Part shown: piece by piece, positions 86 to 54,078 of the stretch
Numbering within the stretch: position 1 is the stretch's first letter
Layout: each line of letters opens with the position of its first letter
Origin: Bacteroidota bacterium
GTDB taxonomy: Bacteria; Bacteroidota; Bacteroidia; B-17B0; Aurantibacillaceae
NCBI GenBank assembly: GCA_013816615.1
Contig: JACDED010000002.1
Coordinates: forward strand, 1 to 64,000
DNA length: 64,000 nucleotides
Direction of reading: 5' to 3'
Position numbers and translations under genes: made by a program
Notes under the pieces: generated by a model
Databases searched by the model: none
What the model was told of the DNA's origin: nothing
Seen by the model: the letters and a program-made list of their open reading frames with translations, nothing else

Positions 86-2914
86 TTAATGTGCTGCCAG
101 CCAGTTCTCCCCAACACCCATTCCAACCTCAACTGGCACATCTAAGGGTAAAGCGTTACGCATATGCATTTCAATAATTGGTTTTACAATTTCCAGTTCG
201 GGTTTGTAAACGTCAAACACTAACTCATCATGCACCTGCAATAACATTTTTGTTTTAAAATTTTGTTCTTTAAGATCGTTATAAATATTGATCATCGCTA
301 CTTTGATCATATCTGCAGCGCTACCTTGTATTGGTGCATTAATAGCATTTCGTTCTGCAAAGCTGCGAACCGTTGCGTTGTTTGAATTGATATCGCGCAA
401 CCAACGCTTACGGCCTAACAATGTTTTTACGTAGCCATTCTCGCGCGCAAAATTGATTGTGTCATTCATGTAAATATCAATGGCAGAGAATTCTTTTTTA
501 TAGTTATCAATTATTTCTTTTGCTTCGGTGCGGCTAATACCAAGATTCTCGGCAAGACCGAATGCACCTTGTCCGTAGATGATCCCAAAGTTTACGCTTT
601 TAGCTTTGTAACGCATTTCTTTTGTTACATCGCTTTCTGCAACGTTAAATACTTTTGATGCGGTGGCGGTATGAATATCTTTTCCTAATCTAAACGCCTC
701 ACACATATTTTTATCGCCACTAATGCTTGCAACAATACGTAGTTCTATTTGCGAGTAATCGGCGCTTAATAAAATATGATCTTTATCGCGTGGAATAAAT
801 GCTTTACGAATTTGTCTTCCCCGTTCTGTTCTGATAGGAATGTTTTGCAGGTTTGGATTATCGCTGCTTAAGCGTCCGGTAACAGCTACAACCTGGTTAA
901 ACGAAGTGTGAATACGGTTTGTTTTTTTATTTACCAGTTCCGGTAAAGTATCTACATAAGTAGATTTTAATTTTACAAGTTCGCGGTAATCCAATATTTT
1001 TGAAACGATAGGATGTGTGCCTTCCAGCTTGCTTAAAACCTCTTCACCGGTAGCGTACTGACCTGTTTTTGTTTTCTTGGCCTTATCAGTGATTTTTAAA
1101 TATTCAAATAAAATTTCGCCAACTTGTTTTGGTGATGATACATTAAATTTAGTTCCGGCTAAATCCTGTATTTCTTTCTCTACATTTGCAATATCAATTT
1201 GTAATTGGGCAGAGAACTCTCTCAAAACGGGTACATCTAAATTAATGCCTTCGCGCTCAATGTTAGCAAGCACTTTTATTAGCGGCACTTCTACATCGTT
1301 AAATAAATTTTCAACGTCATTTTCTTTTAATAAAGGGGCAAACTTTTTTTGTAATTGAATGGTTACATCGGCATCTTCGGCAGCGTAATCTTTTATCACA
1401 TCTATTGCTACTTCGCGCATGCTAATTTGTTCCTTACCTTTTTTGCCGATCAATTCGGTAATACTAACAGGCGAATAATTTAAATAAGTTTGAGCGAGGA
1501 TATCCATACCATGGCGCATATCAGGCATAATTAAAAAATGCGCCACCATGGTATCGAACAATTTATTTTTTATTTCGATATCATAGTTCAATAAGATCTG
1601 GTAATCGTATTTTATATTTTGACCTATTAATACTTTTGAAGCGTCGTCAAAAATTTTACGAAAAGGTGCTAATTGCTTTATAGCTTCGTCTTTATTTTCG
1701 GAGATCGGAACATAATATGCATGATGCGATTTTATTGAAAATGATAATCCAACTAATTCCGCTGTAATTGTATCAAGTCCCGTTGTCTCGCTATCAAAAC
1801 AATATTCAGTTTCTTTTTCAAGAACAGAAACAAGCGTATTTATTTTTTCGATTGAATCAACTAATTCATAATTGTGTTCAACATCATGAATGGTTTTAAA
1901 ATTGGTAACCGGCGTTTGTGTTTCAACGTTTTCATTTGATGAAGAGAAAAGATCCGGATCGCTGAACAGATCTTGTGTTGCTGCTTTTTGAGGTTTTGGT
2001 TCCGGTAATTTTTCTTTGCCACCAATATCTTCGCCTAAAACTTTTTGCGCAATAGCGCGAAACTCAAGTTCTTTAAAAAGCTCAAGAAGGCTTTCTTTAT
2101 TAATAGGTTTTAGTATCAATTCTTTTTCATCGAGCTCAACAGGGCAATCCAAACAAATAGTAGCTAAACGTTTTGACTGAAGCGCCATTTCTTTATTATT
2201 CTCAACCTTTTCTTTTAATTTGCCTTTTAATTTATCAGTATTCGCTAATAAATTTTCAACGCTTCCATAATCTTTAATAAGCTGGATGGCAGTCTTCTCG
2301 CCCACTCCGGGAATGCCGGGAATGTTATCCACTTTATCACCCATTAAACCTAAAATATCAATTAATTGCAATACATTTTCTATTTCCCACTTCTTACAAA
2401 TTTCCTGGGGACCTAAAACCTCGGCGGCATTGCCAAAACGTGCGGGTTTATAAATAAATGTATTGGAGTCAACCAGCTGTCCATAATCTTTATCCGGCGT
2501 CATCATGTAGGTTGTAAATCCTGCCTTCTCTGCTTTAATAGCAAGAGTACCAATAATATCATCCGCCTCGTAACCCGGTGTGCCAAGTGTTTGAATATTG
2601 AAGCCTTTTATCAGATCCATAATTAATGGAATAGATTTGCGAAGATCTTCCGGCATTTCTTCACGGTTGGCTTTGTAGGCTTCAAACTCAACGTGGCGCT
2701 GTGTTGGACCTTCCATATCAAACACAACGGCAATGTGCGTTGGCTTTTCTTTATTTAAAATTTCGAGTAAGGTATTTGTAAAACCGAAAATAGCCGAGGT
2801 ATTAAAGCCTTTTGAGTTGATACGCGGCGCATTGCTGAATGCAAAAAAAGCGCGGTAAATAAGCGCATACGCATCTAATAAAAATAATTTTCTTTCAGTG
2901 TCTTTTGTGATCAT
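86..2914 (-). CDS. polA: DNA polymerase I
   Basis: 942 aa; 5'-3' exo (GYEADDIIGTLA), 3'-5' exo (FDSETTGLD) and pol A motifs (SADYSQIELRI, RYKAKSVNFGIIYG, QVHDELVF). Confidence 0.98.
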   Translation of the reverse strand: MITKDTERKLFLLDAYALIYRAFFAFSNAPRINSKGFNTSAIFGFTNTLLEILNKEKPTHIAVVFDMEGPTQRHVEFEAYKANREEMPEDLRKSIPLIMDLIKGFNIQTLGTPGYEADDIIGTLAIKAEKAGFTTYMMTPDKDYGQLVDSNTFIYKPARFGNAAEVLGPQEICKKWEIENVLQLIDILGLMGDKVDNIPGIPGVGEKTAIQLIKDYGSVENLLANTDKLKGKLKEKVENNKEMALQSKRLATICLDCPVELDEKELILKPINKESLLELFKELEFRAIAQKVLGEDIGGKEKLPEPKPQKAATQDLFSDPDLFSSSNENVETQTPVTNFKTIHDVEHNYELVDSIEKINTLVSVLEKETEYCFDSETTGLDTITAELVGLSFSIKSHHAYYVPISENKDEAIKQLAPFRKIFDDASKVLIGQNIKYDYQILLNYDIEIKNKLFDTMVAHFLIMPDMRHGMDILAQTYLNYSPVSITELIGKKGKEQISMREVAIDVIKDYAAEDADVTIQLQKKFAPLLKENDVENLFNDVEVPLIKVLANIEREGINLDVPVLREFSAQLQIDIANVEKEIQDLAGTKFNVSSPKQVGEILFEYLKITDKAKKTKTGQYATGEEVLSKLEGTHPIVSKILDYRELVKLKSTYVDTLPELVNKKTNRIHTSFNQVVAVTGRLSSDNPNLQNIPIRTERGRQIRKAFIPRDKDHILLSADYSQIELRIVASISGDKNMCEAFRLGKDIHTATASKVFNVAESDVTKEMRYKAKSVNFGIIYGQGAFGLAENLGISRTEAKEIIDNYKKEFSAIDIYMNDTINFARENGYVKTLLGRKRWLRDINSNNATVRSFAERNAINAPIQGSAADMIKVAMINIYNDLKEQNFKTKMLLQVHDELVFDVYKPELEIVKPIIEMHMRNALPLDVPVEVGMGVGENWLAAH

Positions 2915-2960
2915 GTTATAATTTTTTGTAGAAATTAATTTTGCGAAGCTTATAAAAAGA

Positions 2961-3503
2961 TCAGCTTCTGTTATTGTATTTGGTGATCACTTCTACGGCT
3001 TTTTCTTCGTTTAGTTTTTTGTCGCCTTCATATTCGTTAGCGTACCCGGCAGCTCCACTCATCATATCCTGTAATTGCTTTTTAAATTTTCCTTCTTTAA
3101 CGGTGGTCATTTTTTTATCGTCTTTACGCATCATGTAATATTCTCCTTCCCAGCTAATGGCATTCATATTGGCTACTTCAAACATCATTTTATAAAGAGA
3201 GATTTCTCCGCGTACAAGCACACGATAAAACTTTTGTTCTCCTTCATATTCCATGGCAATGTAATGTTGGTTGTCAAAACCATACGCTTTCACTTTGTTT
3301 GCTTTGTAATTTTTTTGGGTGCCGCTTTCCTCTTTAAAAAAAACCTTACTGTAATTATCCTGTTCTTTTTTCGGATTTATTTTCACTTCGCCTTTAAGCG
3401 TGTCGCCTTTTTCGTTAACAATATACCCCTTTACAAAAGTAATTTGCGCATTGACACAAAATGTTACTAAGCTTATCAATAGAGCTGTGAGCGTATTTTT
3501 CAT
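2961..3503 (-). CDS. Secreted hypothetical protein
   Basis: 180 aa ORF with N-terminal signal peptide MKNTLTALLISLVTFCVNAQ. Confidence 0.75.
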   Translation of the reverse strand: MKNTLTALLISLVTFCVNAQITFVKGYIVNEKGDTLKGEVKINPKKEQDNYSKVFFKEESGTQKNYKANKVKAYGFDNQHYIAMEYEGEQKFYRVLVRGEISLYKMMFEVANMNAISWEGEYYMMRKDDKKMTTVKEGKFKKQLQDMMSGAAGYANEYEGDKKLNEEKAVEVITKYNNRS

Positions 3504-3686
3504 AAAACAAATTTTAAACAGGCTTATAAAGAAAATTAAATTTTAGCTCTAAAAAAAGCTTTGTTAGAACTGTGTGAATAAGTTGAGCTGTTATTTGCAA
3601 ATACTGCGGTTTTTGACTGATTTTGTTAAAAACATTTGCCAAACCACTGTTAAAATATATCTTTATATAAGAGTAATTTTTATTAC

Positions 3687-4622
3687 ATGAGCGTAGGCAG
3701 AAAAATTAAATTTACATTAAAGTGGATAGTTATTCTCGTCTTTATTGTTGTACTGTTTTATTACCTGTGGTTACTTTTTTATTTAACATGTGTTGCAAGA
3801 ACCGAAGCAATAAAAAAAGACGATTATTTAAATACACTTATAAATAAACGAGCGCTAATTATAACAGCGCATACTGACGATGATGTTGGTATGGCCGGCA
3901 CGTTACTGCAATTGGCAAAAAACGGCTGGCAATTAAAACATGTTATTTTTAACAATGAAGATCAGACGGATATTAAAGAACGTTTTGCAAATGCCTGCAA
4001 ACAAATACAGGTAAATGAAACCGGAGTTTTTGCTGTTAATATTCGTCGTGATTTGGATACAAATAAAAAAGCTTACTGGCCTTTACCTTTTGCGGTTTGG
4101 GATAAAGTATTTGATCACGATACGGTTTACAGCATCCTCAGCAAAGAAATTTTAGATTATAAACCATCTGTTATTTTTACTTTAGATGACAGCATTGGCG
4201 GTTACGGCCACCCGGAGCATGTTTTGATAAGCAAGGTGGTACATGAGATCTGCACGAATTATAAGAATGAAGAAATTTATAAAGGCGGCACTTTATTTTC
4301 AGTAGAAAAAATATACCAGGCAGTACTTCCAAAAAAAATGGCGCATAAATTATTGGTTGATGGTAGCAGGGTGCAAAAAAGTGCTAATGTGTATTTAGCA
4401 GCACAGGCAGCTTACAGTTGCTCTGGAATGCCAGACCCGGAAGTTGAAGTGGAGATAAAAGGTCTTTCGAAAGAAAAAATGAATTACATTAAAGCTTACA
4501 ATATGGGTGAAAGAAAAAATATTGGAAAAGTGTATAGGTATTACAATTATTTTCCACACTGGATCTACTTCGGCATTTTTGATAAAGAATACTTTAACGT
4601 GATCGATCTGCGAAAAAATTAA
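3687..4622 (+). CDS. PIG-L/LmbE family deacetylase with N-terminal TM helix
   Basis: ALIITAHTDDDVGMAGTLLQL and GYGHPEHVLIS motifs. Confidence 0.85.
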   Translation: MSVGRKIKFTLKWIVILVFIVVLFYYLWLLFYLTCVARTEAIKKDDYLNTLINKRALIITAHTDDDVGMAGTLLQLAKNGWQLKHVIFNNEDQTDIKERFANACKQIQVNETGVFAVNIRRDLDTNKKAYWPLPFAVWDKVFDHDTVYSILSKEILDYKPSVIFTLDDSIGGYGHPEHVLISKVVHEICTNYKNEEIYKGGTLFSVEKIYQAVLPKKMAHKLLVDGSRVQKSANVYLAAQAAYSCSGMPDPEVEVEIKGLSKEKMNYIKAYNMGERKNIGKVYRYYNYFPHWIYFGIFDKEYFNVIDLRKN

Positions 4623-5461
4623 TGTGCAAATTTAACTTCAAACATTTTTGGCCAAAGCTTACCGGTAACGTAAATTTTGTCGGCAATAGAATCGTAAGCA
4701 ATACCGTTCATTTCTAAGGCATTTGGATTCAGGTTACGCATATCATAATTTATTGGCGTAAAGTTAATTTTTGCAACTACGTTTCCTGTTTTAGGATCGA
4801 TCTTTACAACATAACCGGTTGTATAAATGTTGGCATAAATAAATCCTTTAATAAACTCCAGTTCGTTTAAAGCGTCGGCAGCATAACCGTTTTCGTTAAC
4901 GGCAAGGGTTTTTACAGGCTTCATTTCCGCATCAAAATAAGTAAGGTTATTTGTACCGTCACTCATAATAATATGAGTTCCATCTGTAGTTAAACCCCAG
5001 CCTTCTTTATTAGCATAATTAAACTGACCAATTTTTTTAAATGTTTTTGCATCATAAATAAAACCGGTTTGTTCTTTGTAAGTTACCTGGTAAATTTTCC
5101 CGTTTAAAATAACCATGCCTTCGCCAAAAGGATATGCTTTTTTATCCAGTTCTACTTTTGCATCGAGCTTTCCGGTTTTCATATCAACAATACCTAAAAC
5201 CGACTTTAACTCCGGCATATTATCCGGTGAGCCTGTACTTTCGAATAATTTATTATCGTGAAATAAAAGGCCTTCTGTAAAGGCAGTTGGATCATGAGGT
5301 AATGTGGTAACAATAGAATAATCTAAAAAAGGAACAGGGGGTTTTTCATCAACCACTACTTTTATGTCAGGCTGTTTTTCTACTTTGGTTTCGCAAGAGC
5401 TACAAGATACAAATGCAATAACAATTGCAGAAAAAGAAATTATTTTTTTAACACTTTTCAT
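4619..5461 (-). CDS. Glutaminyl-peptide cyclotransferase family lipoprotein
   Basis: HDPTAFTEGLLFHDNKLFESTGSPDN ... AYPFGEGMVILNGKIYQVTYK; Cys-rich lipobox; start placed at MKSVKK (track ORF begins 5476). Confidence 0.85.
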   Translation of the reverse strand: MKSVKKIISFSAIVIAFVSCSSCETKVEKQPDIKVVVDEKPPVPFLDYSIVTTLPHDPTAFTEGLLFHDNKLFESTGSPDNMPELKSVLGIVDMKTGKLDAKVELDKKAYPFGEGMVILNGKIYQVTYKEQTGFIYDAKTFKKIGQFNYANKEGWGLTTDGTHIIMSDGTNNLTYFDAEMKPVKTLAVNENGYAADALNELEFIKGFIYANIYTTGYVVKIDPKTGNVVAKINFTPINYDMRNLNPNALEMNGIAYDSIADKIYVTGKLWPKMFEVKFAH

Positions 5462-5463
5462 TT

Positions 5464-6927
5464 TTATATTTTCCACGATGAGCCTTCCTTAGTATCTTTT
5501 ATCTGAACGCCGGCATCGGTTAGTTTATTGCGGATCTCATCACTTAAGGGAAAATTCTTTTCTACTTTTGCTTTGTTACGAATATCTAAAACAAGATTCA
5601 CTACTTTATCCAATACAGCTGTCGTTTTAGAATTCTCTTTTTCTTTCTTTAAGCCCATTACATCAAAAACAAAATTCTGATATATTGTTTTTAAAAGATC
5701 AATATCTGCTTGCGTTAAGCTTAGTTTGCCATCATTAGCAGAATTAATAATTCTTACCGTATCAAATAAATGTGCAACCAGAACGGGCGTATTAAAATCA
5801 TCGTTCATGGCATCGTAACATTTTTGTTGCAATGCTTTTATATCTTCGGTTGAAGTGGATGCCGCTGTTAATGTTAGCAAAGTATTATGCGCTTCCATTA
5901 AACGCTCAAATCCTTTTTCGCTGGCCTGTAATGCTTCGTTAGAAAAATCAAGCGTACTGTGGTAATGTGTTTGCATCATAAAGAAGCGCACGCCCATTGG
6001 GCTGTAGCCTTTCTCTAATAAAGGATGATCGCCGGTAAATAACTCGCCCGGTAAAAAACCATTGCCTGCAGATTTTGACATGCGTACACCGTTAACGGTT
6101 AACATGTTTGTATGCATCCAATAATTTACCGGTGCTTTATGATTACATGCCTGTGATTGTGCAATTTCGTTTGTGTGATGTGTGGCCTGCAGATCCATGC
6201 CGCCGCCATGTATATCAAACACATCGCCTAAATATTTACTGCTCATTGCCGAACACTCGATGTGCCAACCCGGAAAACCCCAGCCCCACGGCGATGGCCA
6301 ACGCATTAATGTTTCGGGTTTTGCTTTTATCCATAATGCAAAATCCAAACGACCATGTTTTTCATCTTGTCCGCTTAGTTCACGGGTACCTTCTAAAAGT
6401 TCTTCCAGTTTTCTATTCGTTAATTGTCCGTAAGAAAAATCTTTATTGTATTTCTCTACATCAAAATACACTGTGCCATCAACAACGTAAGCAAAACCTT
6501 TTTCAATAATTTCTTTTATCATTTCTATCTGCTCGCAGATATGGCCTGTAGCGGTTGGCTCAATGCTTGGCGGCATATTGTTGAATGCCTGCATTACATC
6601 ATGAAAACCAACGGTATATTTTTGTACAATTTCCATCGGCTCTACCTGCTCCAGTTTTGCTTTTTTCGCGAACTTATCATCCCCTTCATCACGATCACCT
6701 TCCAAATGCCCGGCATCAGTAATGTTGCGCACATAACGTACTTTATACCCAATATGAATTAAGTAACGGTAGATCATATCAAAAGAAATGAAGGTGCGGC
6801 AATTGCCTAAATGCACATCACTGTAAACCGTTGGGCCACAAACGTAAAGTCCAACCAAGGGTGGTTTAATTGCTTTAAATTCTTCTTTTTTACGCGTAAG
6901 CGTGTTGTATAAAAATAATGGTTGCAT
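5464..6927 (-). CDS. cysS: Cysteine--tRNA ligase
   Basis: [14 protein letters not shown] (HIGH-like), [17 protein letters not shown] (KMSKS-like). Confidence 0.98.
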
Positions 6928-7111
6928 AAGGAGAAGTAAAAGTAAGAAAATTAAAGGATTTCTAAAACTTACCCCTAAAGGAATTGCAGGATATTTAAAT
7001 CTTAAATTATTTAAGATTATTCTATTGGAGCGTCTTCAACGTAAATTCCATCTTTATAAACGGCTATTCGGCTTAATACTTTGTTATCATCATATATGTA
7101 TGCTTTACCAT

Positions 7112-7732
7112 TCATAAATCGATTGTTTTCAAAAAAACCATCTTTGGTAATCTGCTTGCATTATTATATAAAACATGGTTACCCCATAAAGGAAATATAA
7201 CATCAAAATATTTTCCGCAAGAAAGCTCAGATGAATCTTTAATTACTTCTTTACCGATATTAAAAAAATCGTCAGAAATTCTTATGATTTGCGAGCCTTC
7301 TACTTTCCCTTCTAGTTTAAAAAAGCGTTCGTACACAACTTTCCCGGTGGTGTCAAATTGCTGATACTTTTCAACCCAGTGATTGTTCCTCCAGGTTCCC
7401 GTTTCCTTTATCACACCATTTTCATGGTACATAGAAGCTTCGCCGTTTGGTCTCCCCTCTACGAAAGTCAATTTGTTTCTTAAATTTCCGTTGCAGTAAT
7501 GTTCTGTCCAAATTCCACTTTTTCTATTATTAATGTATTTTCCTTCTTCAACTGTCTGATCTACTTGATAGCAGGTTCCGGGTCTTAGTTTTCCTGTTAT
7601 GCGCCACTGGTCTTGCTTTTTTCCTTCAAGATCAGTGCGGTTAATAGTATCACCATTATATATTTCAAACGTTTGGCTAATGCCTAAAACAGACAAGAAC
7701 ACGAAACAAAACATATATGTGTAAATTTTCAT
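7112..7732 (-). CDS. MORN/YwqK-like repeat protein, apparently frameshifted (original end probably 7017)
   Basis: Paralogue of 7785..8657; repeats G.W..NHW, signal peptide; C-terminus diverges at a 1-nt frameshift (see findings). Confidence 0.75.
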   Translation of the reverse strand: MKIYTYMFCFVFLSVLGISQTFEIYNGDTINRTDLEGKKQDQWRITGKLRPGTCYQVDQTVEEGKYINNRKSGIWTEHYCNGNLRNKLTFVEGRPNGEASMYHENGVIKETGTWRNNHWVEKYQQFDTTGKVVYERFFKLEGKVEGSQIIRISDDFFNIGKEVIKDSSELSCGKYFDVIFPLWGNHVLYNNASRLPKMVFLKTIDL

Positions 7733-7742
7733 GGAGACAAAA

Positions 7743-7765
7743 AAGGCGGAGTAAAACTCCGCCTT
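7743..7765 (-). terminator. Rho-independent terminator after 7785..8657 gene
   Basis: Hairpin AAGGCGGAGTTTTACTCCGCCTT followed by T-run on minus strand. Confidence 0.75.
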
Positions 7766-7784
7766 ATATTTAAATAATAAAAAA

Positions 7785-8657
7785 TTAGTTTTCTATTGGC
7801 GCATCGCCAACGTAGATGCCGCCTTTGTAAACAGCAACCTGTGTTAAAATGCCATTTTCGTTATAGATATAGGCCTTTCCTTCCATAAAACGATTGTCTT
7901 TAAAAACACCGTCTTTAGTTACCTGTTTGTTTTTGTTGTAAAGTGTTTGCTTACCATTTAAAACCAAGGCCCCTGCTGGTTTTTCAATTACTGCAATTTT
8001 TGGTGGATTTGGTGCATCTTCTGTTTTCTTGGCAACTTTTTCAGTTGATTCGTAAGTTTTAATAGTAGCAACATCTACATTACCATTATCGTATTTTTTT
8101 TCAGCTTTTAATTTGCCGTTCTCATAAAATTCCTGAACGGTTCCTGTTTCTTTTCCGTTTACAAAATTTCCTTTAACAGCTGTTTCACCGTTTTCGTATT
8201 TGTAGGTTTGCACGCCTTCGCGCTTACCGCTGGCGTTAAATGTAAATTCGTGTTGTACCTGTCCGTTATCGTAATATTGTTTAAAGCCGCCAACCCAATG
8301 GTTATTTTTCCATTGTCCTTCTTCTTCAATTTTTCCGTTCTCGTGGTAAACGATTGCGTAGCCATCTGGACGGCCATTTGCGAATGTTATTTTGTTTTTT
8401 GTATTTCCGTTACAGAAATACTCCATCCAAATTCCGGTTTTACGGTTTTCTTTGTACGATCCTTCTTCCGCTTTTTGACTGGGGGCATAACATGTATTTG
8501 GTTTATGTTTTCCGAATAAAACCCATTTACCTTGTTTTTTGCCAAGCTCATCAATAAAGTTAATAGTATCCATGGTGTTAGGGATCACTTCATATGTTTG
8601 CGCAAAATGGGTATTTAAATACCCTAAACTTAGTGCGAATAATAATGTGATTCTCAT
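7785..8657 (-). CDS. MORN repeat / YwqK-family protein, secreted
   Basis: Repeated NG....G.....NG..E.E..W....WVGG..QYYDNGQ; signal peptide. Confidence 0.8.
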   Translation of the reverse strand: MRITLLFALSLGYLNTHFAQTYEVIPNTMDTINFIDELGKKQGKWVLFGKHKPNTCYAPSQKAEEGSYKENRKTGIWMEYFCNGNTKNKITFANGRPDGYAIVYHENGKIEEEGQWKNNHWVGGFKQYYDNGQVQHEFTFNASGKREGVQTYKYENGETAVKGNFVNGKETGTVQEFYENGKLKAEKKYDNGNVDVATIKTYESTEKVAKKTEDAPNPPKIAVIEKPAGALVLNGKQTLYNKNKQVTKDGVFKDNRFMEGKAYIYNENGILTQVAVYKGGIYVGDAPIEN

Positions 8658-15929: not shown

Positions 15930-16901
15930 CTATTTCAATTTTACTTCTATACTTCTTTCCTGCTGTTTGGTTGGTAACAAACCTTGTTTTAAAAATGTGG
16001 TTTGTCCTTTTGGGCCTGCCACAAAGGTTTCAAAGCCTTTTGCTAAACTAAATTCTCCTGTTTTTTTAATTACATACACCGTTCTTGTAAAGGGATATGT
16101 GTTTAGTTTAAAACTGCTTTGGCTTGGAAGCTCAAATTGATCGTTAGTGTTTTTTTGGCCAACAGGAATGAATTTTATTTTGCCAAGATTGGCCTTAAAA
16201 AGAGAATCGTCTACATCGCTTAACCAGGCAAAATCAATAAACGCAATTGTGTTTTTATTTGCCGCCACATAATTAATGCTTTCTAAGCTTGATCCCAAAA
16301 CGCTGCAATCAGGGGAAAATGCGGCGCCTTTTAAAAGTGAGTCTCTTAAATAAAACATTACTGAAGAATTATTTTTATCGAACAACACTTTCATTTTTGT
16401 TTCGTTGTTTAAAGAATCTTTTGTTTTCAATTCTTTGCTTAGCAGCTCTACTATTTGTTCGTAAGAAAGGTTTTTTACCGGCGTGTTTATATTTGTAATT
16501 AAAGCAATACCGCTTTTTGCTACCGCTGTTGGATTAGGCGTATAGCTTTTAGAGGAAAATGCCTGTTTTTCTTTTTCATTTAAATTGCGTGAAATAACAA
16601 TGGCTTCGCAACTATCGCTGTATAAGGCCTGCACGGCTTCATTCTCAGTTACAGAAAACAGTTCGATGTTAGCGTTTCCATAAAGTGCCTCGAAAGTATA
16701 CACCTGGTTTTCTACATGGGATCTTAATCCTTCGTCATAATACACTTTTAATTTTCCTGAAGTTGGCGTGTTATCTTCGTAATCATTTTTAAAATAATCA
16801 CTGCAGCCATACATTGAGATAAAAGATACAAGATACAAGACGCAAGACGCACCTGCGAAGAAACCAGAAACCTGAAACTTAAAACGTTTATTGTTCTTCA
16901 T
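15930..16901 (-). CDS. PstS-like phosphate ABC transporter substrate-binding lipoprotein
   Basis: PstS-like fold motifs (AVAKSGIALITN, LSYEQIVELL, YPFTRTVYVI); start placed at MKNNKRFK with lipobox SMYGC. Confidence 0.85.
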   Translation of the reverse strand: MKNNKRFKFQVSGFFAGASCVLYLVSFISMYGCSDYFKNDYEDNTPTSGKLKVYYDEGLRSHVENQVYTFEALYGNANIELFSVTENEAVQALYSDSCEAIVISRNLNEKEKQAFSSKSYTPNPTAVAKSGIALITNINTPVKNLSYEQIVELLSKELKTKDSLNNETKMKVLFDKNNSSVMFYLRDSLLKGAAFSPDCSVLGSSLESINYVAANKNTIAFIDFAWLSDVDDSLFKANLGKIKFIPVGQKNTNDQFELPSQSSFKLNTYPFTRTVYVIKKTGEFSLAKGFETFVAGPKGQTTFLKQGLLPTKQQERSIEVKLK

Positions 16902-17109
16902 TTCTTTTTTGTTGTTTAAGTGTTTGATATAATCGAAAGCCCCTGTAAACCGCATATGCAAATAACATAATAACAAAACCGGTGCGCTTGTTTCCGTAAA
17001 GCCTATCGCTCATCAGATCTGTTGTGGCAAAGGCAATAGCGCCTGCTACAACCAAAACGATCATAAATGCACCGGTCCAAATGGTAAATGAATTCAAAAT
17101 TGGTTTCAT
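16888..17109 (-). CDS. Small two-TM membrane protein of the TonB/ExbD operon
   Basis: MKPILNSFTIWTGAFMIVLVVAGAIAFATTDLM...; position between tonB and PstS-like gene; start at 17109. Confidence 0.75.
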   Translation of the reverse strand: MKPILNSFTIWTGAFMIVLVVAGAIAFATTDLMSDRLYGNKRTGFVIMLFAYAVYRGFRLYQTLKQQKRNEEQ

Positions 17110-20763: not shown

Positions 20764-20825
20764 ATGTTTCAGGTTTCTTGTTCCTGGTTTCTTGACTGTG
20801 TCTTAAGTCCTGTGTCTTGAATCCT
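20764..20825. repeat. Dispersed GTTTCAGGTTTCTTG / GTCTTGAATCC-type intergenic repeat
   Basis: Same word order as 16818..16878 (minus strand) and related to 53906..53974. Confidence 0.6.
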
Positions 20826-22112: not shown

Positions 22113-22763
22113 ATGCTTAAAAAAGTTCTTCTGTTTTTGGTTTTTAGTTTCTCGTTTCAATCAGTTGTTTCACAAACTACAGTTCAGGATACTATTTATT
22201 TAATGAATGGCCATGTTGTTGGCGAAAGAGTAATTGATACACTTTTAGGTGCTGTTACTATTATAAATCCAAAAAAACCAAGCAAAAAAATTCATTACGA
22301 ATGGGATCAGCTTTTTATGGTGCGTTTTGCCAATGGCGATAAACGTTATTACTACAAACAGGATTCATTATTAAGCAATTGGTTTACGCGTGATGAAATG
22401 TGGATGTACATGAAAGGCGAGAACGATGCACGCAAAGGTTTTAAAGCCCGCGGCGCTATGATCGGCGCAGGTATTGCAGGTGTGATTGGCGGAATGACCG
22501 GTACGTTTTGGGGGCCTGTTGCCCCTTACGGATTTATGGCTTTAACCGGTTTACCAAAAGTTAGAATAAGGCATAGCACTATTAGCAATCCAACGTATGT
22601 AGAAAGTGATGCTTACATTTTAGGCTACGAGCGTGTGGCAAGGCAACGTCGAAAAATTAAGGCCGTAATTGGCGGAACCGTTGGGCTTGCAATTGGCTAT
22701 ACTATTTATGCTCTCTTTCATTCTTCTTATCCTGAAAATATAGATGTGGGTTTTAATAAATAA
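22113..22763 (+). CDS. Secreted hypothetical protein with glycine-rich TM segments
   Basis: Signal peptide; DTIYLMNGHVVGE...; GAMIGAGIAGVIGG. Confidence 0.7.
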   Translation: MLKKVLLFLVFSFSFQSVVSQTTVQDTIYLMNGHVVGERVIDTLLGAVTIINPKKPSKKIHYEWDQLFMVRFANGDKRYYYKQDSLLSNWFTRDEMWMYMKGENDARKGFKARGAMIGAGIAGVIGGMTGTFWGPVAPYGFMALTGLPKVRIRHSTISNPTYVESDAYILGYERVARQRRKIKAVIGGTVGLAIGYTIYALFHSSYPENIDVGFNK

Positions 22764-32013: not shown

Positions 32014-32087
32014 GGTCCCATAGCTCAGCTGGATAGAGCACAGGTTTTCTAAACCTGCGGCCGCTGGTTCGAATCCAGCTGGGATCA
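32014..32087 (+). tRNA. tRNA-Arg (anticodon TCT)
   Basis: Cloverleaf resolved by hand: acceptor GGTCCCA/TGGGATC, anticodon arm CAGGT-TTTCTAA-ACCTG, T arm GCTGG-TTCGAAT-CCAGC; CCA not encoded. Confidence 0.95.
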
Positions 32088-32553: not shown

Positions 32554-32776
32554 TTGGGCGTTGCCTCCGGCCCGGGCTAAAGTTTATCCTGAGCCTGACG
32601 AAGGGCTACTCGCTTTTTTTATTTCGCTATCGCTGCATAAAAAAGAGCTCAAACAAGCGCTCTATCCCTACGCTATACACTATAGTTGCGTTAGGGATTG
32701 CAGCAGATATCCTTTTTATGATTTTTGAAATTATAAAAAGATAGCAGCGAAAAGCCCGGCCGAAGGCAACGCCCAA
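32554..32776. repeat. MITE-like element with terminal inverted repeats
   Basis: TTGGGCGTTGCCTCCGGCCCGGGCT at left; AGCCCGGCCGAAGGCAACGCCCAA at right (one substitution, one indel). Confidence 0.85.
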
Positions 32777-50064: not shown

Positions 50065-53000
50065 CTAATAACTCAAGTTCGGCCCTAACCAACGCTCCGC
50101 AAAATCAACACTTATACCCTTGCGCCTGGCATAATCCTCCACCTGTTCTTTATTTATTTTACCTATACCAAAGTAATGCGATTGCGGATGCGAAAAATAC
50201 AAGCCGCTTACTGCAGCCGTTGGCACCATAGCCAAACTCTCTGTTAAAATAATGCCGGTGTTCTTTTCTACGTCCAGTAAATTCCAAATGGTTAATTTTT
50301 CGGTATGGTCTGGTTGCGCCGGATAGCCTGGTGCCGGACGAATACCCGCGTATTCTTCTTTAATAAGATCTTCAGTGCTTAATGTTTCATTTTTTGCATA
50401 GCCCCAAAATTCCTTGCGTACTTTTTTATGCATTAATTCGGCAAAAGCTTCCGCCAAACGATCGGCTAAAGCTTTAACCATTATAGCGCTATAATCATCA
50501 TGATCTGCTTCAAAACGCTTTACATGTTCATCAATACCAATACCTGTTGTTAAAGCAAAAGATGCAATATAATCCTGCGGTGTAGCAACACCGTTTTTTG
50601 GTTTTACGAAATCTGCAAGCGCAATGTTGTATTGGCCGGCAGGTTTTTTAGTTTGCTGACGAATAGAATGGAAGGTTGCTTTTTTATTTCCTTTTTCATC
50701 ATACACTTCTGTATCATCATCATTTATAGTACTTGCAGGATAGATACCAATTACAGCATTTGCCTGCAACCATTTTTCATCAATTATCTTTTTTAACATA
50801 CCTTGTGCATCGTTAAATAATTTTGTTGCTTCTACTCCGCGTTCCGGATCTTTTAAAATTTTTGGATACGAACCTTTCATTTCCCAACTATGGAAGAAGG
50901 GCGTCCAATCAATATAATCAGAGATTTCTTTAAGGTCGTAATTGGTAAATGTTTTATTGCCAATAAAAGCCGGCTTAATAATTTCTGACTTGCTCCAGTC
51001 TATGGGAAATTTATTTTCGCGCGCTTCTTTTAAAGAAATAAATTTATTTTGTCCTTGCGCGTTTTTATTTTGTTCGCGTACACGGTCGTAATCTTTTGTT
51101 ACCTCAACCATAAATGCATCGCGTAATTCGTTTGAAATTAAACTACTGGCAACAGGCACCGATTTACTCGCGTCATTTACGTGTACTACCGGGCCAGAAT
51201 AATTTTGAGCGATCTTAACCGCAGTATGTACTTTAGAAGTTGTTGCGCCCCCAATTAATAAAGGTGTTTTAAATCCTAACCTTTCCATCTCTTTTGCAAC
51301 GTGTACCATTTCATCAAGAGATGGTGTGATCAATCCGCTTAAGCCGATAACATCTACATTTTGTTTTTTAGCTTCTTCTAAAATTTTATCGCAGCTAACC
51401 ATTACGCCAAGATCAATGATCTCGTAATTGTTACAGGCCAACACAACACCCACAATATTTTTTCCAATATCGTGTACGTCGCCTTTTACAGTCGCCATTA
51501 AAATTTTTCCAGCATTAGTTCTTCCATCACCAACAATGCCGGCTTTTTTATTTGCCTCTTTTTCAGCTTGTAAATACGGTTCTAAATACGCAACGGCTTT
51601 TTTCATAACGCGCGCGCTTTTTACAACCTGCGGTAAAAACATTTTTCCACTTCCGAAAAGATCGCCTACTACATTCATGCCATCCATTAACGGACCTTCA
51701 ATTACGTGTAAAGGTCTTCCTAATTTTAAACGCGCTTCTTCTGTATCAGCATCAATATGCTCAACCAAACCTTTTACTAAAGCATAGCTTAAACGCTCTT
51801 CAACAGTGCCCTTACGCCAGGCTTCATCTTTCTCGGTTTTCTCTTTTGTAATTCCTTTTAAAGATTCTGCATGATCAACCAAACGTTCGGTAGCATCATC
51901 CCTTCTATTTAATAAAACGTCTTCAACTAATTCTAAAAGTTTTTTATCAATGTCATCGTAAATTACCAATTGCGCTGGATTTACAATTCCCATATCCATA
52001 CCTTCTTTTATGGCATGATACAAAAACGCAGAATGAATTGCTTCACGTACGTGATCATTCCCTCTAAACGAAAACGAAACGTTACTTACACCGCCGCTTA
52101 CTTTTGCGTGTGGTAAATTTTCTTTTATCCAACGTGTTGAATTAAAAAAATCTAAGGCGTTTAAACGGTGCTCTTCCATACCGGTAGCTACCGGAAAAAT
52201 ATTGGGATCAAAAATAATATCCTGCGGTGGAAAGTTTACTTTATTAACCAATACATCATACGCACGTTTACAAATTTCTTTTCTACGCTCTAATGTATCT
52301 GCTTGCCCTACCTCATCAAAAGCCATTACAATAACAGCTGCGCCGTATTGTTTTACTTTATGTGCTTGCTCTATAAATTTTTCTTCACCTTCTTTTAAGG
52401 AAATAGAGTTAACAATTGCTTTTCCTTGCACACATTTTAATCCTGCTTCTATTACACTCCATTTAGAAGAATCGATCATGATCGGCACACGCGAAATATC
52501 GGGCTCAGATGCAATTAAATTTAAGAAGGTTATCATTGCCTGTTCGCTGTCTAACATCCCTTCATCCATATTCACATCAATAACCTGTGCACCGCCATCT
52601 ACCTGGTCTTTGGCAATAGATAATGCTTCTTCGTAATTACCTTCTTTAATTAAACGCAGAAATTTTTTTGAGCCGGTAACATTTGTTCTTTCACCAACAT
52701 TTAAAAAATTACTTTCAGGAGTTAGGGTATACGGCTCTAATCCGCTTAAATGCATTAAAGTATCTGCCTTTGGTTTTTTACGGGGCGTTGCTTGTTTTGC
52801 CAGTTCGGCAATGCGTTTAATGTGTGATGGTGTTGTGCCACAACAGCCGCCAACAATATTTATAAAGCCTGCTTTTAAAAAGTCTTCGATCTGGTGGCCC
52901 ATTTCGTGAGCATCCTGGTCATATTCACCAAACTGGTTTGGTAAACCTGCGTTAGGATATGCACTTACATAGAATGGTGCTTTTTGAGAAAGCTCTTCTA

Positions 53001-53769
53001 AATACGGACGCATATCTTTTGCGCCCAAAGCACAATTTAAGCCGACGCTTAACAGCTTGACGTGCGAAACTGAATTTAAAAATGCTTCTGTTGTTTGGCC
53101 AGATAAAGTACGGCCACTGGCATCGGTAATTGTACCTGAAACCATTACCGGCATTACGCGGTCAATGCTTTCGCAATAATTTTGAATAGCGAACAATGCC
53201 GCTTTAGCATTTAGAGTATCAAAAATAGTTTCAACTAATAACACATCGGCGCCGCCTTCAATTAATCCTTTTACCTGTTCGGTATAAGCGGTTACTAATT
53301 CATCAAAGGTAATAGCGCGAAAACCAGGATCGTTTACATTAGGTGATAAGGATAAAGTACGGTTGGTTGGCCCCAATGCACCCGCAACAAACTTAGGCAC
53401 ATTAGCAAATTCAGGAAACTCTTTTTTAAATTCTGCAATAGCTTCTTTTGCCACTTTAGCAGATTCGAAATTTAATTCGTAAGCCAGTTCCTGCATTTCG
53501 TAATCGGCCATGGCAATTGTAGTAGCACTAAACGTATTTGTTTCAATAATATCTGCGCCCGCTTTTAAATATTCTTTATGAATGGTTTTAATGATTTGCG
53601 GTTGCGTAATAGAAAGCAAGTCATTGTTGCCTTGCAGATCTTTATGCCAATCTGCAAAACGTTTACCGCGAAAATCTTTTTCCTCCAGTTTATAATGTTG
53701 GATCATGCTTCCCATGGCGCCATCAATTACTAAAATACGTTTCTCAAGTTCTTGTTCAATTGTATTCAT
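50065..53769 (-). CDS. metH: Cobalamin-dependent methionine synthase
   Basis: 1234 aa full length: Hcy-binding ([15 protein letters not shown]), pterin-binding, B12 motif [12 protein letters not shown]-terminal activation domain ([15 protein letters not shown]). Confidence 0.97.
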
Positions 53770-53788
53770 ATACTTTTTTAAAATAAAA

Positions 53789-53818
53789 AATCCCTTCGGA
53801 CTTGCGTCGGAAGGGATT
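53789..53818 (-). terminator. Riboswitch-controlled intrinsic terminator upstream of metH
   Basis: AATCCCTTCCGAC-GCAA-GTCCGAAGGGATT then TTTT; about 20 nt before metH ATG. Confidence 0.88.
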
Positions 53819-53860
53819 AGTTTTTATATTGTTTTATAAAATGTTTAACTAATTACTCCG

Positions 53861-54029
53861 ACTTATTTTTCTCGTTAAACGAGACGAATTCCCACCTTCT
53901 TTTAGTGTTCCTGGTTGAAGTTTCTTGTTTGAGGTTTTAGAACCAGAAGCGCGAAACAAAAAAACAAGAAACTCTTATAAGGGTTGGTAAAGCTTCATTG
54001 GGCGTATCCCTCTGCTTTTCTTAATAAGT
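53861..54029 (-). ncRNA. SAM-I (S-box) type riboswitch aptamer upstream of metH
   Basis: ACTTATT-AAGAAAAGCAGAGGGATACGCCCAATGAAGC..CAACC ... AAGGTGGGAATTC..CTCGTTTAACGAG..AATAAGT; P1 and P4 pair, core motifs match S-box. Confidence 0.9.
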
Positions 54030-54047
54030 GTTTTAAAGAACTGGCCT

Positions 54048-54078
54048 CAAAGATAATACAATTTATATAACTTTACAA
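54048..54078 (-). promoter_or_regulatory. Bacteroidota-type promoter for the SAM riboswitch-metH transcript
   Basis: Minus strand TTG-N20-TATCTTTG just upstream of the aptamer. Confidence 0.65.

Follow-up and report, generated by a model that had tools for sequence, protein, structure and literature searches.

Heptanucleotide repeats as apparent building material of the outer P3 helix in the metH SAM-I riboswitch of Bacteroidota

The STRR of cyanobacteria are heptameric repeats found between genes. Heptameric direct repeats with the unit TAACTGA are also largely intergenic and occur in Beggiatoaceae and, again as arrays, in a few Bacteroidetes (PMC4679880), and the heptad elements of Geobacter consist of short tandem words of 7 nt (PMC2700814). 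Inside a structured RNA, degenerate heptanucleotides form the P6b hairpin of the trnL(UAA) group I intron in Nostoc and Calothrix. The P6b repeat classes TDNGATT and NNTGAGT swap as whole regions and, although unrelated, have similar secondary structures (PMC4476775, PMC3488679). Riboswitches are described by Barrick and Breaker (2007, PMC2258182) as tolerating long nonconserved stem-loops, or 'variable insertions', at specific sites. Our literature search, which had most subscription journals outside its reach, found no earlier report joining riboswitch arms with heptanucleotide repeats.

In this context, we analyzed a 64,000-nucleotide stretch of DNA from a Bacteroidota bacterium, referred to in full as the window, in which a SAM-I riboswitch aptamer sits upstream of metH, both on the minus strand. 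The leader and its gene comprise the following features.

54076-54078, minus strand: TTG upstream of the promoter-type box (sequence)
54048-54055, minus strand: -7 promoter-type box TATCTTTG (sequence; matches TAnnTTTG)
53860-54030, minus strand: SAM-I riboswitch aptamer (RF00162) with intact core (cmscan 60.0 bits, E 2.2e-11, model positions 1-108 of 108)
53856-53864, minus strand: P1 3' strand AAGUCGGAG, candidate antiterminator (complementary to the terminator strand CUUCCGAC)
53780-53818, minus strand: intrinsic terminator hairpin and U-run, AAUCCCUUCCGAC..GUCCGAAGGGAUUUUUU (fold of 53770-53880)
50065-53769, minus strand: metH, cobalamin-dependent methionine synthase (Pfam, all five domains)

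The ligand core had been called intact by the first-pass annotation, and this was borne out: the match extends over the full model length with a score above the RF00162 gathering score of 44.4 bits, and the conserved core and P1-P4 are present. A simple terminator scanner overlooked the hairpin at 53780-53818, which was recognized through folding; the region 53770-53880 has a fold z of -3.8, and none of 200 shuffles was equally stable. Based on this modeled fold, the hairpin is likely the expression platform of the metH switch. The P1 3' strand AAGUCGGAG could pair with the terminator 5' strand CUUCCGAC as a candidate antiterminator, and because of this complementarity the expected mechanism would be ordinary SAM-induced termination. 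The locus thereby combines a downstream methionine gene with a terminator and a complementary P1 strand, as is typical of SAM-I riboswitches. We read TATCTTTG as a promoter box on the basis of TAnnTTTG, which we take to be the Bacteroidota -7 consensus; with this box, its TTG, the aptamer and the terminator, the metH leader looks complete. Most likely, then, SAM would regulate metH in the conventional way, through transcription termination, and the heptad hairpin described below would be a peripheral scaffold. The same genome carries another SAM riboswitch on contig C219, and the second SAM switch of these genomes has a short P3 without repeats. As a separate observation on structured RNAs in the window, a Flavo-1 RNA (RF01705) scoring above its gathering score lies at 32680-32765 (plus strand); a tRNA gene (32014-32087) precedes it by about 600 nt.

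The P3 helix departs from this conventional layout by an extension inserted between its two core strands.

53981-53986, minus strand: P3 core strand CAACCC, flanking the extension
53900-53980, minus strand: P3 extension of inverted heptad arrays, 81 nt (lag-7 self-identity; missing from relatives with a short P3)
53941-53974, minus strand: 5' arm, with heptads of the GTTTCTT type (sequence; full-length register is the MFE)
53904-53936, minus strand: 3' arm, with heptads of the AACAAGA/AACCAGG type (sequence; fold)
53892-53899, minus strand: P3 core strand GAAGGTGG, flanking the extension
53919-53930, plus strand: first arm of a perfect 12-bp inverted repeat, alternative register (sequence, shuffles)
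53962-53973, plus strand: second arm of the 12-bp inverted repeat (sequence, shuffles)

The extension had been noticed as about 80 nt of inverted GTTTCTT-type words, and our delimitation agrees. Its repeat unit is a 7-mer, with a lag-7 identity of 0.46 compared to 0.27 after shuffling (P ~0.0005). One arm reads GTTTCTT GTTTTTTT GTTTCGC GCTTCTG GTTC and the other AACCTCA AACAAGA AACTTCA ACCAGGA ACACT. The perfect 12-bp stem reported earlier was recovered at exactly the same positions, and dinucleotide shuffling of the insert never produced an inverted repeat of at least 12 bp (0 of 300). This stem is one of two possible pairing registers. When the base of P3 is included, the MFE is the full-length register, in which the outer arms pair with each other and which is likewise the predicted fold for the relatives G009 and G002. 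The fold z of the window insert itself is modest, at -1.3.

To place this arm among its relatives, SAM riboswitches of 40 genomes of the genus and 80 metH loci from named MAGs were compared; the basis is computational and consists mostly of MAGs, in which individual leaders may be chimeric. In most metH leaders of the genus, P3 is extended by 63-113 nt (median 81, IQR 77-84). Among 51 distinct long P3 inserts, the self-identity reaches z 26 at lag 7, 21 at lag 14 and 11 at lag 21, peaks that mark tandem, degenerate 7-nt units such as those of STRR, and in a subset of 17 inserts less than 65% alike, lag 7 still gives z 12.4 against dinucleotide shuffles. The best period among 4-13 is 7 in 44 of the 51 inserts and 8 in three. 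By eye, these are AGTT-type octads (AGTTTGAA and similar), as in the metH P3 of L112, L126 (G022) and L132 (G024). The words vary by genome: GTTTCTT in the window, G009 and G002; AAATGTTA/CATTTAT in G003 and G031; AAGTAAGA/TCTAACT in G013; AATTAAG/TTTTCAA in G028 and G011; GTTTAAG in G014; and others besides. The first-pass annotation had suggested looking for a short P3 in relatives. Five metH leaders of the genus do have one, free of repeats (G005 14 nt, G016 11, G030 24, G018 39 and G007 39), but most have a long heptad P3, usually built from other words. P3 measures only 16-25 nt in L154, L163 and L165; that of G027 is long by eye and was left out of the short forms. The short P3 of these relatives implies that the extension is dispensable over evolutionary time. 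Cobalamin riboswitches (11 sequences) and RNase P RNAs (5 sequences) of the genus vary in length but showed no comparable heptad arrays.

Outside the genus, most SAM-I riboswitches of the class among the matches listed stay near the 108-nt consensus. A heptad metH P3 is nevertheless seen in family f36, with GGAGATT/CCCTCCT words, in family f22, with ATTAAGG words in a direct array, and in family f21, with AATTATA words. The words at these other-family loci (L285, L288, L289 and L286) are unrelated to those of the genus. In families f9, f5 and f35 a long P3 is present that is not built from heptads. Judged by sequence comparison, heptad arrays make up the P3 arm in the genus and in three or more further families, with words that differ between close relatives.

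What persists while the words change is the capacity to pair. The P3 inserts fold more stably than their shuffles (mean z -3.4, with 94% below -1.5), and the mean duplex energy is -18.7 kcal/mol for the 5' and 3' arms of one leader compared to -9.2 kcal/mol for arms swapped between species. Of the heptad arrays elsewhere in the genomes, 35% fall below z -1.5, despite taking the most stable of ten windows for each. Between metH pairs that are 85-90% identical, the core is 0.89 identical and P3 0.60, the shuffled null being 0.525 +/- 0.05. For the window compared with L105, L107 and L108 (metH 0.85-0.86), the core remains at 0.90-0.91 while P3, at 0.50-0.51, is at the null level. Within the genus, the ligand core, an extension length close to 81 nt and the predicted pairing of its arms thus persist.

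The metH tree, built on ~870 nt and with many weak forks, contains a well-supported clade of five species, the window's among them, that carries three word families. Word-family labels, assigned by crude single-linkage clustering, change 28 times on this tree, compared to a mean of 32 and a minimum of 29 in 200 label shuffles. The Mantel correlation with metH is low for both the core (0.19) and P3 (0.15); since the forks are weak and the value for the core is low too, the replacement count is rough. Individual cases are discordant in two ways. The P3 of G037 (L123) and G023 (L110) is 0.96 identical even though core and metH are both at 0.81, which suggests lateral exchange of the P3 stem, and for L137 and G026 the values are 0.91 for P3, 0.89 for the core and 0.81 for metH. 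The 5' core of G002 exactly equals that of its sister G001, yet their P3 is only 0.48 identical, and the P3 of G002 resembles the window's type (0.80-0.83 to G000 and G009). Both kinds of discordance would fit a P3 stem that is replaced or exchanged as a unit. Owing to the limited tree resolution and possible MAG chimeras, the number of such P3 replacement events is uncertain. Taken together, P3 is a permissive helix that was repeatedly rebuilt from heptad arrays, and selection apparently acts on its pairing and not on its sequence.

The heptad P3 has its closest precedent in the P6b hairpin of the Nostoc trnL group I intron. Both are peripheral helices of structured RNAs with heptad arms that pair, and in both, word classes are replaced as whole regions between relatives. 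The hosts differ, a SAM-I riboswitch of Bacteroidota rather than a cyanobacterial group I intron, and metH P3 uses many word families where P6b has two classes. Because its host RNA is a riboswitch, metH P3 works like P6b and is not a homologous member. With the STRR, TAACTGA and Geobacter elements the arrays share tandem 7-nt words and a largely intergenic setting; those elements, however, are mostly direct repeats of one conserved word, whereas the words of P3 are degenerate, turn over and form inverted hairpins inside an aptamer. The variable insertions of riboswitches, for which the relevant part of the 2007 account (PMC2258182) gives no repeat origin, differ in that metH P3 is built from heptads and its whole stem is repeatedly replaced. 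The heptad-hairpin habit of the Nostoc intron is therefore not confined to cyanobacteria or introns. The metH leaders also provide a natural replicate series of ~50 species in which the ligand core of a riboswitch stays constant and a single helix acquires new sequence but keeps its shape. Such a series allows us to ask directly where new helices in structured RNAs come from and which of their properties are visible to selection.

The first-pass annotation interpreted the extension as a dispersed repeat grafted into P3. The dispersed character holds for the class of arrays: in a 2.06-Mb sample out of nine genomes, 34 period-7 arrays exceeded the threshold, compared to 2 at the lag-8 control. 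Across the control lags 4, 5, 8, 10, 11 and 13 the maximum was 10 arrays (lag 10), and lags divisible by 3 were also high owing to coding repeats. These counts come from the replacement of a strict lag-7 detector that overlooked degenerate arrays. The arrays lie mainly outside ORFs, and each genome carries many word families instead of one family in many copies, as STRR would have it. Grafting of one particular repeat did not find the same backing. No further copy of the window's P3 insert exists in the 97%-complete genome, where the next-best match has E 0.1 over 33 nt, and the words, proposed to be multicopy, occur at 42 sites compared to 47 in a reversed control (two-word pattern, up to 2 mismatches). 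Within the window the word GTTTCTTG is mildly over-represented, with 8 occurrences for 3.2 expected, a number reached by 3 of 100 shuffles. Matching of 14-mers (up to 2 mismatches) from each P3 to its own and other genomes gave no systematic own-genome excess, in a comparison that is noisy in AT-rich DNA. Two further places in the window had been said to hold the same words between genes. Related words do occur at both, one intergenic and the other coding.

20764-20825, plus strand: intergenic direct heptad array with related words and no hairpin (fold z +0.3)
16817-16878, minus strand: heptad array in the part of a lipoprotein gene that encodes the signal peptide (ORF analysis, lag-7 test)

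On the evidence of this census, the dispersed entity is not one repeat but a class of heptad arrays that lie mostly between genes. In another genome, the locus L224 (G001:C1:4000001-4020000) shows AACTGCC/TAGTCAA-type heptad arrays clustered densely in 7 kb, at ~1100-8000.

We consider it likely that degenerate heptanucleotide repeats make up the outer P3 hairpin of the metH SAM-I riboswitch, and that this hairpin is kept by selection that acts on structure only. Since P3 would extend outward from the SAM pocket, self-folding inserts would be tolerated there. DNA slippage and template switching could create and alter the arrays, whole P3 modules may sometimes be swapped via recombination across the conserved aptamer flanks, and selection would retain variants with pairing arms and discard those that misfold the core. 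The mobile element suspected at the outset, a discrete MITE- or REP-like repeat inserted into P3 of the window genome, is by comparison highly improbable. The inverted repeat in the leader and the related words elsewhere in the window would agree with it, but the missing second copy and the lack of genome-wide word enrichment argue against a simple multicopy mobile repeat. Moreover, several near-identical copies with defined ends, as expected of MITE or REP elements, were not found in the genome, neither defined ends nor a target-site duplication were seen at the insert, and relatives share the architecture with other words. The window's P3 is better described as a recurrent sequence class that turns over than as a single repeat inserted once.

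Selection for structure has its own counterpoint, as complementary arms could stem from palindrome-making mutation. Taken to its end, this would mean that mutation alone produced the palindromic arrays, at a site that is neutral, with pairing as a by-product of template switching and no selection involved. Such a process would explain why sequence turnover is fast and why hairpin heptad arrays exist between genes too (e.g. samples 12 and 16 of G000). We find it unlikely, given that genomic arrays are hairpins far less often than P3 inserts, as the proportions above illustrate, and that most species have an array in P3, compared to a density of about 0-5 arrays per 100 kb elsewhere. A difficulty for the favored reading is the constant length of P3, which tolerance alone does not account for. 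It could reflect a positively selected role, in which an ~80-nt fast-folding hairpin of free sequence tunes co-transcriptional timing, RNA stability or pausing. The narrow length range over unrelated word families, the strong conservation of the hairpin relative to genomic arrays, the recurrence of this arm type in metH leaders of other families and the short, repeat-free P3 retained by the other SAM switch of these genomes all speak for such tuning. We entertain it only tentatively, as several relatives lack the extension, which is hence not essential, and a similar length could be inherited through in-place word turnover.

Heptad arrays can also be followed into protein-coding sequence. The array at 16817-16878 belongs to an ORF (15930-16976, minus strand) that is substrate-binding-protein-like by inspection. 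Scanning 22 orthologs (L322-L343) gave a signal-peptide lag-7 z above 2.5 in 11, and no control stretch in each of those lipoprotein genes exceeded 2.3. The words sometimes differ here as well (CTGCATA in G025, AGATTTA in G017, other words also in G010). By its period-7 signal, the lipoprotein signal peptide is a second site using heptad arrays as raw material. Only tentatively do we extend this to a broader proposal, in which heptad arrays might be a general raw sequence wherever physical form outweighs the letters, serving metH P3 in four or more families, where some of the origins are probably independent, as well as the hydrophobic lipoprotein signal peptide, with P3 cassettes exchanged between species under selection for pairing and length only. 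A further coding heptad array of the window, at 22113-22170 (plus strand), likewise lies in a signal peptide (MLKKVLLFLVFSFSFQSVVSQ).
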